Shown here piece after piece: positions 380-6,272 of a stretch of 7,086 nucleotides of DNA. Made by a program: the position numbers and the translations under genes. Location: positions 1-7,086 of the forward strand of contig JAFTUZ010000036.1 in NCBI GenBank assembly GCA_017466005.1, read 5' to 3'. The stretch comes from Clostridia bacterium (GTDB taxonomy: Bacteria > Bacillota_A > Clostridia > Christensenellales > UBA1242). The first letter of the stretch is position 1, and the number at the start of each line of letters is the position of its first letter. The notes under the pieces are model-generated. The model was not told where the DNA came from. It made no database searches and saw only the letters and a program-made list of their open reading frames with translations.

Positions 380-1885
380 ATGAAAAAGGTTTTGATGGAA
401 AAATTTAAAGAATCGTTTGTATCAATTTTGCCCATCACTATACTTGTTGTAATATTATCACTTACAATAGCACCCCTAGATAATTTAATGCTGGTACAGT
501 TTTTAGTTGCCTGTATTTTTCTTATGATAGGGATTGCTCTTTTTACTTTGGGTGCTGATACTGCAATGGTGCCTATTGGTAAAAATATGGGGTCTTATTT
601 AAGTGGAAAAAGCAAGCCGTGGATTATGATAGTGGTTTGCTTTTTGCTTGGTGTTATGGTTACCATAGCCGAGCCAGATTTAATAGTACTTGCAGGGCAA
701 GTTCAGTCGGTAGATTCTACTACTTTTATTTTATTTGTTTCGTTGGGTGTAGGAATATTTTTAATAATTGGCTTATTGCGAATTTTGTTTAAAATTCCTT
801 TGGGCGTAATATTACTTATAGCATATGGTTTAATATTTATTTTGGCATTTGTTTTGCCAGCCGCTATTGTGCCTGTTTCGTTTGATTCTGGAAGTGTAAC
901 AACTGGGCCAATTTCGGTGCCGTTTATAATGGCGTTTGGGCTTGGTTTGGCTGCTGTTCGTGGTAGTAACAGTAATGATGATAGTTTTGGGCTAATAGCG
1001 CTTGCTTCTGCGGGGCCAATTTTGTGTGTTATGATGTTTATGTGGATAAGTGGAGTAACTGGTGGGGTGCAAGTAGAGCAAACAATAACACAAGTTAATA
1101 ACTTTGGCGATATTTTAATGGGTTATATAAATGCGTTCCCTGGTTATTTAAAAGAAGTTGCAATAGCATTAGCACCAATAACAGTATTTTTCTTACTTTT
1201 CCAATTTTTTGCGTTAAAACTTCCAAAACATCAAATTTTTAAAATTTTAGTTGGTTTAATATATACATTAATTGGTATTACAATTTTCCTAACTGGTGTA
1301 AACGTAGGTTTCTTGCCAGCGGGTAAAGAAATTGGTAGTATAATTGCTGAAAATTATACTTGGGTGCTTATACCGGTGTGTATGCTTATTGGTTTTGCTA
1401 TGATTGCAGTAGAACCTGCTGTTCAAGTTTTAAATAAACAAATAGAATCTATAACTGGTGGAACAATTTCACGTAAAGTAATGTTTTTATGTATAGCTGG
1501 CGGTGTTTCGGTGGCATTAGGGCTTGTTGCGTTGCGTGTGTGGCTTGGGTTTAATATTTTGTGGGTGCTTGTGCCTGCATATGTTATTGCACTGTCACTT
1601 TCTTTTGTTGTTCCAAAAATATTTACAGGTATTGCGTTTGACTCGGGTGGTGTATCTACCGGGGCAATGGCTACAACGTTTGCATTCCCGCTTATAATGG
1701 GAGCTTGTGATGCGTTGGGTGGTAGTTTGCTTTTAGATGCGTTTGGCACATTGGCTTTTGTTGCGGTAGCACCAATACTTACAATTCAGATATTAGGTTT
1801 AATTTACAAAATAGGTATGAAAAGAAAAGAAGCACAAGAAGAAAAAGAAATTTCTAAACGTGTGGAAATTTTGGAATTTGATTAA
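380..1885 (+). CDS. DUF1538 family multi-pass membrane protein, putative transporter
   Basis: A 501-residue, very hydrophobic protein with about a dozen predicted membrane segments, recognised as DUF1538. It is built from two homologous halves. MVPIGKNMGS (63-72) matches FLPAGKEIGS (311-320). The stretch around AEPDLIVLAGQV (97-108) matches VEPAVQVLNKQI (344-355). FDSGSVTTG (168-176) matches FDSGGVSTG (420-428). The duplicated Gly/Ser/Thr-rich FDSG-V-TG and EP-V-L-Q motifs look like substrate or ion sites inside the membrane, as in internally duplicated transporters, but the substrate is unknown. The C-terminus (about 480-501) is a charged cytoplasmic tail. The start is supported by GGAAGTGA just upstream. 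Two PII-like genes follow in the same direction, which fits my recollection of DUF1538 families and suggests PII-controlled transport. The family call is firm; transport function is inference. Confidence 0.9.
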   Translation: MKKVLMEKFKESFVSILPITILVVILSLTIAPLDNLMLVQFLVACIFLMIGIALFTLGADTAMVPIGKNMGSYLSGKSKPWIMIVVCFLLGVMVTIAEPDLIVLAGQVQSVDSTTFILFVSLGVGIFLIIGLLRILFKIPLGVILLIAYGLIFILAFVLPAAIVPVSFDSGSVTTGPISVPFIMAFGLGLAAVRGSNSNDDSFGLIALASAGPILCVMMFMWISGVTGGVQVEQTITQVNNFGDILMGYINAFPGYLKEVAIALAPITVFFLLFQFFALKLPKHQIFKILVGLIYTLIGITIFLTGVNVGFLPAGKEIGSIIAENYTWVLIPVCMLIGFAMIAVEPAVQVLNKQIESITGGTISRKVMFLCIAGGVSVALGLVALRVWLGFNILWVLVPAYVIALSLSFVVPKIFTGIAFDSGGVSTGAMATTFAFPLIMGACDALGGSLLLDAFGTLAFVAVAPILTIQILGLIYKIGMKRKEAQEEKEISKRVEILEFD

Positions 1886-1891
1886 TAGGCG

Positions 1892-1965
1892 GGGGCAAGC
1901 ACGCCGGCGAAAGCCGGCTGTGTGCGCCAGCACACCACACGCATTTTGCGTGTAGTGCTTGCCCC
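1892..1965 (+). repeat. GC-rich cloverleaf (four-way junction) element between DUF1538 and PII genes
   Basis: An 11-bp perfect closing stem (GGGGCAAGCAC 1892-1902 with GTGCTTGCCCC 1955-1965) encloses three consecutive perfect hairpins. These are GCCGGC-GAAA-GCCGGC (1903-1918), GTGTGC-GCCA-GCACAC (1920-1935) and ACACGCA-TTT-TGCGTGT (1937-1953). Only single unpaired bases T1919, C1936 and A1954 remain at the junction. 49 of 74 bases are G/C, in a strongly AT-rich setting. The first hairpin has a GNRA (GAAA) tetraloop on the plus strand. It is not a tRNA (no matching arm sizes or T-loop motif), and neither strand has the U-run of a terminator. Possible roles are a REP/MITE-like mobile repeat or an mRNA processing/stability element separating transporter from regulator expression. 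Structure is certain; function and copy number are unknown. Confidence 0.85.
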
Positions 1966-1989: not shown

Positions 1990-2364
1990 ATGGCAGTAAA
2001 AAACAAATCACCACTAGATATTATTGTGTGTTTTGTTCCGCATGATAAAACAGAACACACCATTGAAATTTTAACAAATATGGGTGTTTATTTTCAGATA
2101 GCAACTATTGCAAACGGTAAAGAAAAAAGTGGATTACTAGATTATTTAGGTATGCTAGAAACCGACCTTAGTATGATTGCTGGTTTTATAGAAAGTTCAA
2201 AGGCACACAATGCTATATATAATTTGTGCCGTAATATGGAATTATATAAGGCAAATAAAGGAATGGCTTTTTCTATTCCAGTAGTTGCAATTAGCAGAAA
2301 CGATTTAAATAAAATATTAAAATATGAACCGCCAAAAAAGGAGAAAAAAGAAGATGATTCTTAA
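1990..2364 (+). CDS. PII-like small regulatory protein, divergent (DUF1538-associated)
   Basis: A 124-residue protein about the size of PII (GlnB/GlnK, about 112). It has the ferredoxin-like order expected: strand DIIVCFVP (10-17), helix (20-31), strand VYFQIATI (33-40), then a long loop region (41-62) where the T-loop should be. Next come ETDLSMIAGFI (57-67), a second helix (71-83) and a strand GMAFSIPVVAI (91-101). The last resembles the G-x-x-F-x-x-P strand of PII proteins. It lacks an obvious uridylylated Tyr motif, so classic GlnD control is unlikely. The tail (114-124) is charged. SD AAAGGGAGA (1977-1985) precedes the ATG. It overlaps the next PII gene by 11 bases, implying translational coupling. 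The family call comes from fold-level resemblance and context, and is less firm than for the next gene. Confidence 0.65.
   Translation: MAVKNKSPLDIIVCFVPHDKTEHTIEILTNMGVYFQIATIANGKEKSGLLDYLGMLETDLSMIAGFIESSKAHNAIYNLCRNMELYKANKGMAFSIPVVAISRNDLNKILKYEPPKKEKKEDDS
2338..2343 (+). promoter_or_regulatory. Ribosome binding site fixing the second PII start at 2354
   Basis: AAGGAG lies 10 bases before ATG 2354 and inside the end of the preceding gene. An upstream in-frame ATG at 2324 would add ten residues (MNRQKRRKKK), which are simply the other-frame reading of the previous gene's tail and have no SD. Starting at 2354 puts the conserved PII strand at residues 8-14, as expected for the family. Confidence 0.75.
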
Positions 2365-2887
2365 ACAAAGTTTTGGATTAATAGTAACAATAGTAAACCA
2401 AGGTTATGCCGATAAAGTTATAGATGCTGCAAAATCTTGTGGAACAGAAGGGGCAACAATATTAAAAGCACGTGGAACTGGTATTCATGAATCTAATACT
2501 TTTATGGGGGTAAATATTCAACCAGAAAAAGAAGTTGTTTTAATGATAGTTAAAAAACAAATACGCAAAAAAGTTATGCGTGCAATTTTAAAACAAGCAG
2601 ATGTTGCGGCAGAAGGTAATGGCCTTACTTTTGCTTTGCCTTTGGGCGAAATTGCAGGTATTACACACCTTTTCCAAGAACAAAAAGCGGAAGAGAAAAA
2701 AGAACGCCTAGCACAAAAAGAACAATGTTCTCAAGAAGCCGAAAAAGAAGAAAATAAAAAAGAAGAAAAGCAAGAAAAAACAGAAACAAATAAAGTTGAA
2801 AAAGAAGAAAAACAAGATAAAGAAGTAGAAAAACAAGAGAAAACAAAAACAGAAGATTTAAAAGAAACGGATAATACAAAAAAATAA
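2354..2887 (+). CDS. PII family nitrogen-regulator-like protein with a long Lys/Glu-rich tail
   Basis: The protein has 177 residues. Residues 1-108 are a PII domain: strand GLIVTIVNQG (8-17), helix, GTEGATILKARGTG (30-43, the conserved G-T-RG segment), and a short T-loop area ESNTFMGVNI (46-55). EKEVVLMIVKK (58-68), helix, and GNGLTFALPLGEIAGI (88-103) complete the fold; the last corresponds to the B-loop/C-terminal region that contacts nucleotide in classical PII. Residues 109-177 are an unusual hydrophilic tail made mainly of K, E, Q, T and N, likely disordered or a single charged helix. Canonical PII proteins are about 112 residues, so the tail is an addition of about 65. The protein probably senses nucleotide state and binds the DUF1538 membrane protein; partner and ligand are inference. 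No terminator follows, so transcription may continue into the next gene. Confidence 0.8.
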   Translation: MILKQSFGLIVTIVNQGYADKVIDAAKSCGTEGATILKARGTGIHESNTFMGVNIQPEKEVVLMIVKKQIRKKVMRAILKQADVAAEGNGLTFALPLGEIAGITHLFQEQKAEEKKERLAQKEQCSQEAEKEENKKEEKQEKTETNKVEKEEKQDKEVEKQEKTKTEDLKETDNTKK

Positions 2888-2945: not shown

Positions 2946-3614
2946 ATGAAAATAATAAGTTGGAATTGTAATGGTAAATTTAGAGAGAAATATAAATACA
3001 TTCTAGAAGAAAATGCCGACATATATGTGATACAGGAGTGTGAAAACCCTTTAAATTATCTCAAAGAATTTAAAGGGTTTTATTCTAAATATAAATGGTA
3101 TGGTGAGAATAATAATAAGGGTCTAGCAATTTTTGTTAAAGATAATATACATATACAAACAAATGAATGGCCATATTATTGTCTTCGCCATTTTATATCT
3201 GTAAAAATAAATAATAAATTTGATTTAGTTGGTGTTTGGGCAAGTCCTCCACATATAGAAGAATATTTTATATATCAAGCAATAAATATAAACAATTACT
3301 CTGAAAATACAATAATAATTGGAGATTTTAATAGTAATGCTATATGGGATAAAAAACATCAGAGAAGAAATCATACAGCTGTTGTAAACGAACTACAAAA
3401 TATCAATATAGTGTCAGCTTATCACTATTTTATGAAAGAACAATCAGGTAAAGAAACACAACCAACTTTTTATTTATATAGACATTATGATAAACCTTAT
3501 CATATTGATTATTGTTTTGGTAACCCAAAACATTTTAAAAGTTTTGATATTTTAGAATATAAAAAATGGATACAATTTTCCGACCATTTGCCTATAAAAA
3601 TTGAAATTAAATAA
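2946..3614 (+). CDS. Exonuclease/endonuclease/phosphatase (EEP) superfamily hydrolase
   Basis: A 222-residue single-domain protein with the full EEP active-site set in order: SWNCNG (5-10, Asn7), IQECE (29-33, metal-binding Glu31), IGDFNSN (125-131, Asp127 and Asn129), HIDYCF (187-191, His187/Asp189) and SDHLP (212-216, Asp213 and the general-base-type His214). It therefore appears catalytically competent for Mg2+-dependent phosphodiester cleavage. There is no signal peptide or extra domain; it is shorter than ExoIII/APE (about 255-280), so substrate (DNA repair, RNA or small phosphoester) is undecided. SD GAGGTGA (2930-2936) supports the start. A lone TACAAT (2913-2918) could be a -10 box without a clear -35; otherwise it reads through from the PII genes. 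The gene looks AT-richer than the DUF1538 gene (30 G/C in 120 bases at 3121-3240), which hints at separate acquisition. Confidence 0.85.
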   Translation: MKIISWNCNGKFREKYKYILEENADIYVIQECENPLNYLKEFKGFYSKYKWYGENNNKGLAIFVKDNIHIQTNEWPYYCLRHFISVKINNKFDLVGVWASPPHIEEYFIYQAININNYSENTIIIGDFNSNAIWDKKHQRRNHTAVVNELQNINIVSAYHYFMKEQSGKETQPTFYLYRHYDKPYHIDYCFGNPKHFKSFDILEYKKWIQFSDHLPIKIEIK

Positions 3615-3857: not shown

Positions 3858-4097
3858 ATGCTTAAAGAAAAATTAAAGAATTTGAGAAAGGAAAATAACC
3901 TTACACAACACGAGGTTGCTAAACTACTTAATGTAGTAGATAGTTGCTATGCTAACTGGGAACAGGGTAGAACCGAGCCCAACATATCAATGATTAGAAA
4001 CCTGTGCTGTATTTTTGGTGTTACTTCTGATGAGTTGTTAGAAATAGAATCAGTTGCAAAAACTGATAAAAAACGTATTCCTAAACAGCCCAACTAA
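3858..4097 (+). CDS. Small Cro/C1-type (XRE family) HTH transcriptional regulator
   Basis: A 79-residue DNA-binding protein. Residues 2-60 form the five-helix HTH_3 domain: LKNLRKENNLTQHEVAKLLNV includes helices 1-2, SCYANWEQGRTEPN holds the recognition helix and the W-E-x-G-R-x-x-P signature, and LCCIFGVTSDELLE closes the domain. About 18 charged residues follow, with no sensor or peptidase domain. A TTG at 3855 is in frame, but ATG 3858 is the more likely start; neither has a visible SD (the 20 bases before it are A/T-rich TTCTATTG-like), so translation is probably weak or leader-dependent. Neighbours are the EEP gene upstream behind terminators and a convergent DEAD helicase. Targets are unknown; autoregulation through the adjacent inverted repeat is a guess. 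Confidence 0.85.
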   Translation: MLKEKLKNLRKENNLTQHEVAKLLNVVDSCYANWEQGRTEPNISMIRNLCCIFGVTSDELLEIESVAKTDKKRIPKQPN

Positions 4098-4333: not shown

Positions 4334-5659
4334 TTATTTTTTATTACTTTTTTTGTTTCCGCTAATTTTAGATTTATGCACGTTGCGTAAAGTGCGTGTT
4401 CTGGCACCTAATTTTGCACCGCTTTTTGTGCGAATAATACTATCGCTTTTTTGCCTTGGATTACGGCTCTCACGTTTTTTGGTGTTTAATTTTTTATATT
4501 TAACTTTTTTAGGCTCGGTTGGTTTTATTTCTTTAATTGCTTCCAAATTAAGCCTTGCATAAGTTATTGTGCTTTGTGTTTTCTTGCCAATTTCTTTAAG
4601 TTTTTGTGCTTGGTCTTCACTGTTTAAAATTGTGTATGCACAGCCTTCTTTTCCGGCACGCCCAGTTCTGCCTATGCGGTGAATATAATATTCCATATTT
4701 TGTGGAAGGTCGTAGTTTATAACATATCTTATATTACTAACATCTATTCCACGAGCAGAAACATCGGTGGTTATTAAAATATCTGTTTCATCTTCTTTAT
4801 ATGCACGCATAACTTGTGTGCGTTGGCGTTGTGGCATATCTCCGTGCAAAACAGCAACAGGGTAGCCCATTTTTTCCAAATAAGATTGCACGCCACTAAC
4901 CATTGCTTTTGTGTTACAGAAAATTAAAGTTTTTCCACGTTCTATTTCGTTTAACAAACTGTGTAATGCTTTTTTCTTTTTATCTTTAGGAACTAAAAAA
5001 TATGTTTGTTTTATGTTTCCCAAAGTTGTGTTTGCTTGCCCAACTTTTACTTGCACAGGGTTTGTCATATAGTTTTTAGTTAGTGCCATAATTTCGTTGT
5101 TCATTGTTGCACTAAACATAACAGTTTGCCTATCAAATGGAGTTTTGTTAAGTATTGCTTCTATATCTGCCCTAAAACCCATATTAAGCATTTCGTCCGC
5201 TTCATCTAAAACAACAGTAGAAACGCCACCAAGTTTTAAAGTATGCCTTTTTATATGGTCTAAAACACGCCCCGGTGTACCAACTATAATATTAGCCCTA
5301 CGTTTTAATGCGTAAATTTGCCTAGACATATCTGTTCCGCCATAAAGTTCGGTAACTTTTATGTGTTTTATGTTTTTAGCAAGCATTTTTGCTTCTTTTC
5401 CGGTTTGCAAACACAACTCTCGTGTTGGGCATAAAATAATTGCCTGAACAAAATCTACATCATCAACAATTTTTTCTAAAAGAGGAATTAAAAATGCCAA
5501 AGTTTTTCCTGTTCCTGTTTGGCTAAGCCCAATAAGGCTTTGGTTTTGCATAAGCAAAGGAATTGCTTTTTCCTGAATTTCGGTTGGTTTAACAAAACCA
5601 CGTTGCTCTAAAATTTGTAAAATTTTAGGCGAGATATTAAGTTCATTAAATGTTTTCAT
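4334..5659 (-). CDS. DEAD-box ATP-dependent RNA helicase
   Basis: A 441-residue protein with every superfamily-2 DEAD-box motif: Q-motif GFVKPTEIQ (21-29), motif I SQTGTGKT (46-53), PTREL (78-82), GG (107-108), TPGR (128-131), DEAD (152-155), SAT (183-185), IFCNT (246-250), TTDVSARGID (297-306) and HRIGRTGRAG (327-336). It unwinds short RNA duplexes using ATP in the cytosol, in roles such as ribosome assembly, cold adaptation or RNA decay. There is no dbpA-type RNA-binding domain; instead residues about 380-441 are a Lys/Arg-rich unstructured tail, as in RhlE/CshA-type proteins, which probably binds RNA non-specifically. SD AAAGGA lies just upstream of ATG 5659, and a promoter with an extended -10 follows further up. 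The exact orthologue (cshA, cshB or rhlE-like) cannot be fixed by eye. Confidence 0.95.
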   Translation of the reverse strand: MKTFNELNISPKILQILEQRGFVKPTEIQEKAIPLLMQNQSLIGLSQTGTGKTLAFLIPLLEKIVDDVDFVQAIILCPTRELCLQTGKEAKMLAKNIKHIKVTELYGGTDMSRQIYALKRRANIIVGTPGRVLDHIKRHTLKLGGVSTVVLDEADEMLNMGFRADIEAILNKTPFDRQTVMFSATMNNEIMALTKNYMTNPVQVKVGQANTTLGNIKQTYFLVPKDKKKKALHSLLNEIERGKTLIFCNTKAMVSGVQSYLEKMGYPVAVLHGDMPQRQRTQVMRAYKEDETDILITTDVSARGIDVSNIRYVINYDLPQNMEYYIHRIGRTGRAGKEGCAYTILNSEDQAQKLKEIGKKTQSTITYARLNLEAIKEIKPTEPKKVKYKKLNTKKRESRNPRQKSDSIIRTKSGAKLGARTRTLRNVHKSKISGNKKSNKK

Positions 5660-5741
5660 AATTTTTCCTTTTATTTTTTACGAATGAATTAAAAAATATC
5701 ATACATACTAATATTGCTAATTTGTTTTAACTATATAATAA

Positions 5742-5769
5742 TTATACCATATATAAAAACAAAAAGCAA
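5742..5769 (-). promoter_or_regulatory. Extended -10 promoter for the DEAD helicase gene
   Basis: On the minus strand: TTGCTT (5769-5764), a 16-base spacer and TGG-TATAAT (5750-5742), which is a perfect -10 with the TGn extension. Transcription would begin near 5735, giving a leader of about 75 bases with no strong structure seen. Confidence 0.7.
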
Positions 5770-5809
5770 TAAGCCAAATTTAGCGAAAACTATAAATTTT
5801 AATTTATTA

Positions 5810-5838
5810 TTGACTTTTATATTTGCTTTTGCTAAAAT
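5810..5838 (+). promoter_or_regulatory. Sigma-A-type promoter for the TM2 protein gene
   Basis: TTGACT (5810-5815), a 17-base spacer and TAAAAT (5833-5838), with TGC directly before it as an extended -10. A start near 5845 gives a leader of about 60 bases. It also argues against the upstream in-frame start at 5823, which would lie within the promoter itself. Confidence 0.75.
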
Positions 5839-5906
5839 TGTTTTATCATAATCTAAACCTATGGTTTGATTTTGAAATTTTAAATACAAAAAGGTTGGAT
5901 AGGAAT

Positions 5907-6272
5907 ATGAAAACTGTTAAATGCCAACATTGTGGTCAGGAAATTCCTGAAAACGCAATAGTTTGCCCAAATTGTAGTGAAAGATGTTTATCTACAAAAA
6001 ACAAAATTCTTGCAGCAATTTTTGCAATAATTTTAGGGCCACTTGGTATTCACAATTTCTATTTAAGTTACACAACTCGTGGGTGGATAGAACTTGGTTG
6101 TTCGGCTTTAGGCGCATTGCTTTTATTAAAAGGCTTTGTAGATGCTAGCACCGCTTTACTTGTTGTAGGAATTGTAATTATGGCTTTGGTTTGGGTTTCT
6201 GCTATTGTTCAAGGTATTTTATACTTAACAAGAACAATTGGACGCGACGGTAAAGGTAAAAGATTGGCTTAA
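5907..6272 (+). CDS. Zinc-ribbon and TM2-domain membrane protein
   Basis: The protein has 121 residues. An N-terminal zinc ribbon has the pairs Cys6-x2-Cys9 and Cys20-x2-Cys23 (CQHCG and CPNCS). A TM2 domain follows, with its signature G-P-L-G-I-H-N-F-Y-L (44-53) at the end of the first membrane segment (about 33-52) and further hydrophobic segments at about 60-76 and 82-106. The short C-terminus is basic. TM2 proteins are small integral membrane proteins of mostly unknown role; the zinc ribbon would face the cytoplasm. ATG 5907 is chosen over the in-frame ATG at 5823 because the earlier one lies inside the promoter and the added residues are not conserved-looking. AGGTTGG and AGGA upstream provide the SD. 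It stands alone, divergent from the helicase and convergent with the PH-like gene. Confidence 0.85.
   Translation: MKTVKCQHCGQEIPENAIVCPNCSERCLSTKNKILAAIFAIILGPLGIHNFYLSYTTRGWIELGCSALGALLLLKGFVDASTALLVVGIVIMALVWVSAIVQGILYLTRTIGRDGKGKRLA

Follow-up and report, generated by a model that had tools for sequence, protein, structure and literature searches.

The window analyzed here, a 7,086-nt stretch of DNA from a Clostridia bacterium (contig JAFTUZ010000036.1), carries between two genes a palindromic element folding as a four-way cloverleaf, and this element probably belongs, as a single copy, to a family of small (74–101 bp), non-coding, non-autonomous mobile DNA that adopts this fold when single-stranded or extruded. 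Directly computed were the discrete units made of a closing stem and three hairpins, their covariation, their intergenic sites, the empty matching sites elsewhere, and the presence of similar copies at unrelated sites. The scattered family, found in small-genome bacteria with its shape kept and its sequence hardly so, points to a jumping DNA element whose identity lies in its fold.

Structure and gene setting of the window element

Direct reading of the sequence and folding of both strands gave the features listed in Table 1, and the geometry initially proposed for the element (an 11-bp closing stem, hairpins of 6, 6, and 7 bp, and 60 of 74 bases paired) proved exact. One base is left unpaired at each of the junctions (1919, 1936, and 1954), and none of the 30 pairs is G-U. 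Folded as RNA, the plus strand of positions 1880–1980 reached −56.1 kcal/mol (z of −6.7), while the minus strand, folded with DNA parameters, formed the cloverleaf again (z of −7.6); with 0 of 200 shuffles equally stable in either case, the claim that this is not a chance structure is upheld. Equally, the view that it is not a terminator held, as no terminator-like site, i.e., a hairpin with a T-run, was listed at positions 1892–1965. At the gathering score, Rfam returned no match at the element in the window or at the elements of five loci of G001, the closest relative described below, the sole match being a tRNA elsewhere.

Table 1. Features of the cloverleaf element and its neighboring genes in the window
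Feature	Position	Strand	Description or basis
Cloverleaf element (four-helix palindromic unit)	1892..1965	.	Sequence reading and folds of both strands
Closing stem, left arm	1892..1902	.	GGGGCAAGCAC; 11 bp with 1955..1965
Closing stem, right arm	1955..1965	.	GTGCTTGCCCC; 11 bp with 1892..1902
Hairpin 1	1903..1918	.	6 bp, loop GAAA
Hairpin 2	1920..1935	.	6 bp, loop GCCA
Hairpin 3	1937..1953	.	7 bp, loop TTT
DUF1538 membrane protein gene, upstream of cloverleaf	380..1885	+	Pfam, PF07556
124-aa gene, directly downstream of cloverleaf	1990..2364	+	Without Pfam match
P-II domain protein gene, second downstream of cloverleaf	2354..2887	+	Pfam

The element lies 6 nt past the stop codon of the DUF1538 gene and 24 nt ahead of the next start. 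Of the gene context given in the original prediction, a membrane protein gene followed by that of its PII-like regulator, the first part stands, whereas the P-II gene is not the adjoining gene but the one after it. A search with the DUF1538 protein returned 40 loci, the closest of which, L036 in G001, showed 83% identity. Two differences between the window and L036 were seen farther downstream. Genes for an Exo_endo_phos protein and an HTH protein (window 2946–3614 and 3858–4094) separate the P-II gene from the DEAD/TM2 genes, while the counterpart place in L036 holds no ORF of at least 80 codons, and the DEAD-box helicase/TM2 block itself is inverted (window 4334–6272 versus L036 9035–10946).

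Cloverleafs form a family in related genomes

Folding of 396 kb of the G001 genome (~1.1 Mb) revealed more four-way elements of dissimilar sequence. A structural descriptor was scanned over the G001 stretches and the window, 1,009,400 bases together, and eight small G001 contigs (57 kb) were added, for a G001 total of ~1.06 Mb. The strict scan, which permitted 2 to 6 hairpins, gave 11 matches at dG ≤ −25, all of them three-hairpin (10 in G001 and the one in the window), with none in 5 shuffles. A looser scan permitting one irregularity per stem gave 17 matches at dG ≤ −30, 14 of which were three-hairpin, with none in 3 shuffles; at dG ≤ −25, it gave 22 matches versus 3 in 3 shuffles, and because shuffles also match at this threshold, the looser-scan matches were sorted by eye. 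Element lists throughout were curated by eye from the descriptor output. Dropped in this way were matches with dG ≤ −30 but a minimum-energy fold other than a cloverleaf (L127:10565, L102:1497, L141:11766, L128:16196, and L151:4688), all looser-scan matches at −28.9 or weaker, two matches in L176 (small contigs), a weak match in L032 (−21.1), two two-hairpin matches in L237, weaker or non-cloverleaf matches among the G009 and G007 contigs, and matches in L314 together with repeats of known copies; L151:9042 was retained in its shorter form, L151:9044, and L154:8 overlaps L116:19784.

The check for further copies was thereby answered with 31 elements in total: 15 accepted in G001, 8 in G009 (288 kb covered, with some contigs picked for their matches), 4 in G007, and one each in the window, G020, G042, and G078. 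The first G007 copy was found beside a short match to the window, the first G009 copy by chance at a fetched locus, and the G078 copy via one weak blast match. The third hairpin of the window element is similar to that of the copy carried by G007 contig 117 (CACGCATTTTGCGTG).

Blast with a G009 copy against 148 relatives matched 22 genomes at E ≤ 0.05, strongly only in G009 and G007, and when the G042 and G020 elements served as queries, each matched strongly only to itself, with 10 and 5 of 146 genomes, respectively, at E ≤ 0.01. The window DNA matched 88 of 148 relatives at E ≤ 10, all of these matches being short (best E value, 0.015) and none of them a copy; against plasmids and phages it gave short matches only, none spanning most of the query, and two exact patterns had no match in viral contigs. 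The 356 kb examined in G004 yielded no accepted cloverleaf, nor, besides the G007 one, did loci L001 to L100 outside G001, and none was found in the examined stretches of G146 and G358. The pattern CACGCA-TGCGTG was tried and rejected; it occurred in 78 of 297 genomes belonging to the order, and the 30 loci fetched, from other members of that order, held no cloverleaf. Two covariance models were also built, R1 from one element, which worked on collected stretches, and R2 from 30 strand-rows. On whole genomes, R2 gave matches in 1 of 99 genomes, but its empty answers mean little because it found no more than 5 of the 15 G001 elements used to build it. In a covariance search of 10 genomes, 4 were matched at E ≤ 1, and none of the four matches outside G001 was a cloverleaf.

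Other foldable repeats were encountered during these scans. Five near-identical 69-nt repeats, unlike the cloverleafs, occur in G001 (L113:9294, L119:5043, L131:15595, L133:13935, and L137:8502), and a GC-rich tandem-hairpin element that is not a cloverleaf lies in G007 (L314:2975–3058).

Copies are intergenic and matching sites are mostly empty

Among the 30 elements other than that of G078, none lies inside a kept ORF of >88 codons, in agreement with the intergenic preference for which a check had been proposed; four fall in ORFs of 80–88 codons that were taken as spurious. The neighboring genes are tandem in 13 cases, convergent in 9, divergent in 2, and undetermined in 6, a rough tally that supports no conclusion because the left ORF of L238 is an antisense artifact.

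Copies in G009 and G007 have cores up to 98.6% alike, and the elements G007_C55 and G009_C12 are 92% identical within unrelated flanks. Flank identity between copies was 0.27–0.34 at every offset, with 0.313 expected from composition. In 49 aligned pairs, similarity ended no more than 10 nt from the element edges in 45 and extended 12–45 nt outside in 4.

We compared gene edges with their counterparts in relatives (n = 29, from 17 elements), and 24 were empty, most of these resting on best matches with gene order unchecked, while 3 ran off the stretch and 2 were occupied, the latter being one orthologous G007/G009 pair. Among the 24 empty edges, 2 came from this orthologous pair with its inverted flank, 1 was obtained via an antisense ORF, and 9 were in G004 and are weaker, since that genome, with no element in the 356 kb, may be without the family entirely. 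Two empty sites stand out as clearest, the window junction in G001, which is AT-rich and without a cloverleaf while both neighbor genes stand side by side, and the junction between genes that we take, from reading their translations, to be hisS and trx, which holds an element in G007 and none in G004. Altogether, the further intergenic copies, the empty junction in the closest relative, and the similar copies that two sister genomes carry at unrelated sites support the mobile palindromic repeat of the original prediction, and the suggested check for absence at orthologous junctions points the same way, with 24 of 29 edges empty, including that of the window.

A 587-bp block next to the orthologous pair is inverted between G009 and G007 (L290:3359–4472 versus L295:1155–2078), and homology there stops 62 bp from another G009 element; cloverleaf elements may sit at rearrangement points.

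The shape is kept while the sequence is nearly free

The 31 elements are 74–101 bp long, with a closing stem of 7–15 bp and arms of 5–14 bp, and 82 of their 93 loops have 3–4 nt. When 2 to 5 hairpins were permitted, three gave the best fit in 31 of 31, a count that is partly circular because the elements had been chosen as cloverleafs. In sequence there is little likeness: among 19 elements (those of G001, the window, G042, G020, and G078), only L116:19784 and L175:9314 are alike over their whole length, the single such pair among the 15 of G001. About ten more pairs share single arms, e.g., L122 and L125 over 33 nt, and the G020 and G078 elements share 54 nt. In the L116/L175 pair, double changes separate the two closing stems and the two first hairpins, and hairpin 2 is replaced, both versions of it carrying a bulge of a single A in the 3′ arm.

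Eleven G009 and G007 copies could be aligned, with the reference structure taken from one of the rows. The alignment contains 35 two-sided changed cells at 13 pairs, a result reached by none of 500 shuffles, along with 4 one-sided cells and 14 unpaired ones, 9 of which are beside loops; slid versions of the same alignment gave at most 5 two-sided cells. In a fitted alignment, for which 16 elements supplied 30 strand-rows, 97.7% of cells were paired versus 47.1% when shuffled, and 514 cells were two-sided versus 141.5. By two further measures the fitted alignment did not beat its shuffles, namely, the number of pairs with two-sided change (36 versus 34.3 shuffled; 64 of 500) and the number of further pair types (111 versus 109.9; 215 of 500). 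Watson-Crick covariation is present in all four helices. The compensatory changes that were to be looked for thus exist beside the further copies, so the result under which the original prediction would have let its two readings, mobile repeat and conserved RNA, fall was not obtained. Finally, two copies with nearly identical cores (98.6%) differ in their outer stems, each of which is largely self-complementary, and three outer-stem types (GGGCG, GGCAAT, and GGTGCA) recur by eye, which suggests that parts are exchanged between copies.

Covariation of this kind might also arise from replication template switching alone, in which one arm is copied from the other with neither mobility nor a recognized fold and the family is a by-product of hairpin-prone sites. 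In the part of PMC8794818 available to us, template switching is described as creating and repairing stems and as yielding multi-base compensatory changes. The scarcity of one-sided changes (4 versus 35 two-sided cells) and the variable, largely self-complementary outer stems on the two copies with 98.6% identical cores are consistent with such a process, but neither the constant number of three hairpins nor the presence at unrelated sites of copies that share up to 92% identity and whose likeness mostly stops at their edges is explained by it. We therefore consider this explanation unlikely; template switching by itself could account for the covariation, not for the dispersal. Within a mobile family, the reading we prefer, it probably helps keep the cloverleaf arms perfect.

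Search for tags, transposases, and target duplications

The original prediction named a TnpA/RAYT-type enzyme as a possible mover, an idea that these data do not support. When the 20-nt ends of the 31 elements (14 nt inside the element plus 6 nt of flank) were read on both strands, the REP/REPIN tags GTAG and CGTC were each present in 1 of 31, the former in the window element and the latter in L292. Y1_Tnp was absent from four of the five carriers searched (G007, G009, G020, and G042), metagenome-assembled genomes that may be incomplete, and present in G001 as a broken fragment, the only match across 10 genomes searched. This fragment, interrupted by stop codons, lies near a contig end (L310; G001 contig 2, 115933–116247), and no accepted cloverleaf is found around it (stretch L131). 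RVT_1, sought for a route through an RNA intermediate, was absent from all seven genomes searched (six carriers and G004). No target-site duplication was seen by eye in the flanks of 12 copies. Terminal inverted repeats, a hallmark of MITEs, are present in 31 of 31 elements as the closing stem of 7–15 bp.

If the family were instead a diverged form of REP/REPIN whose RAYT (Y1) enzyme is missing from the assemblies, it would be small, palindromic, and intergenic, would fit the lack of a visible target-site duplication, and could have left the Y1 fragment in G001. Such an origin is nonetheless improbable, given the near absence of GTAG and CGTC from the ends, the lack of Y1 in G007 and G009, home of the most similar copies, and the organization as one four-helix unit rather than one or two REP hairpins.

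Pairing resembles that of folded DNA rather than RNA

G-U pairs make up 11 of 1,082 pairs (1.0%) in the 30 elements other than that of G078, compared to 46 of 737 (6.2%) in G001 tRNA stems and 165 of 1,873 (8.8%) in G001 terminator-like hairpins, so the covarying stems lack the normal G-U rate of a functional RNA. This scarcity was not forced by the search because the descriptor permitted G-U. No conservation of loops was found among the 31 elements. Because pairing is near-pure Watson-Crick and the loops are unconserved, what is constrained appears to be the folded DNA rather than an RNA; the G-U scarcity, covariation, and free loops together fit a DNA-pairing constraint or template-switch copying better than RNA selection. 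The other original proposal, a transcribed RNA element such as an RNase III site, an sRNA, or an operon-uncoupling hairpin, is very improbable, for although the RNA fold is very stable and the window copy sits in a narrow gap, with a stop codon 6 nt upstream and a start codon 24 nt downstream, G-U occurs at a sixth to a ninth of its frequency in G001 tRNAs and terminator-like hairpins, the loops vary, positions are unfixed with matching sites elsewhere mostly empty, and Rfam is silent at the element in the window and the five G001 stretches.

A proposed mechanism and its significance

For the mobile DNA family favored here, we propose that a DNA-processing enzyme acting in trans would recognize mainly the shape, together with a loosely kept GGGGC...GCCCC terminus, when the cloverleaf becomes single-stranded during replication. 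The window copy would have inserted after the split from G001. Arm sequences would drift and whole arms be swapped between copies, with selection for mobility, template switching between arms during replication, or both restoring the pairing. Going further, we tentatively raise the possibility that some bacterial mobile elements form a class whose defining trait is DNA shape instead of sequence, the four-way cloverleaf being recognized by a putative structure-specific enzyme or by host recombination machinery. If recognition is by shape, the arms could diverge completely and be traded as modules without loss of mobility.

As a natural source of covariation data, the family bears on chromosomal DNA structure rather than on RNA structure, and it makes two ideas testable, namely, that mobility may depend on shape alone and that template switching may keep chromosomal palindromes perfect. 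Sequence-based repeat finders miss families that share only a fold, and therefore such elements may be common and unseen.

Comparison with known systems

The best reading of the family's behavior is that it is REP/MITE-like, without REP tags, target duplications, or, in four of the five carriers searched, any Y1 transposase. Integron attC sites are recognized by their folded single-strand shape and are diverse in sequence, a likeness to the cloverleafs, but an attC site consists of one bulged hairpin and lies next to gene cassettes. Prokaryotic MITEs share with the cloverleafs terminal inverted repeats, a non-coding nature, dispersal, and empty sites in relatives; the cloverleafs differ in that no target-site duplication was seen, no parental transposon is known (Y1 and RVT_1 were searched), and the internal arms are also near-perfect covarying palindromes.

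REPs and REPINs, mobilized by RAYT (Y1/TnpA_REP), are, according to the parts of PMC3116915 and PMC3733652 available to us, small, palindromic, intergenic, non-autonomous, and foldable in single-stranded DNA, all of which holds for the cloverleafs. However, a cloverleaf combines a closing stem and three hairpins in one unit whose sequence is almost free, GTAG and CGTC are not a feature of the family, and four of five carriers are without Y1; moreover, 15 cloverleafs were found in G001, whereas REP copy number is usually >100, as stated in the accessible part of PMC2817692. Among the open-access papers in the matches listed, none described the cloverleaf architecture in its title or abstract opening, and the terms cloverleaf, three stem, and multiple stem are absent from the accessible part of a paper on bacterial stem-loop families (PMC2267715).

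Nearest in style are palindromic folded units of mitochondria. As far as the accessible parts of the sources go, yeast mitochondrial GC clusters are palindromic, are believed to be mobile, and undergo merging and shuffling (PMC4478555), and the hairpins of repetitive hairpin-forming elements in sponge mitochondria differ by complementary substitutions (PMC2800124). Unlike these mitochondrial elements, the cloverleafs reside on a bacterial chromosome and have a fixed four-way architecture.
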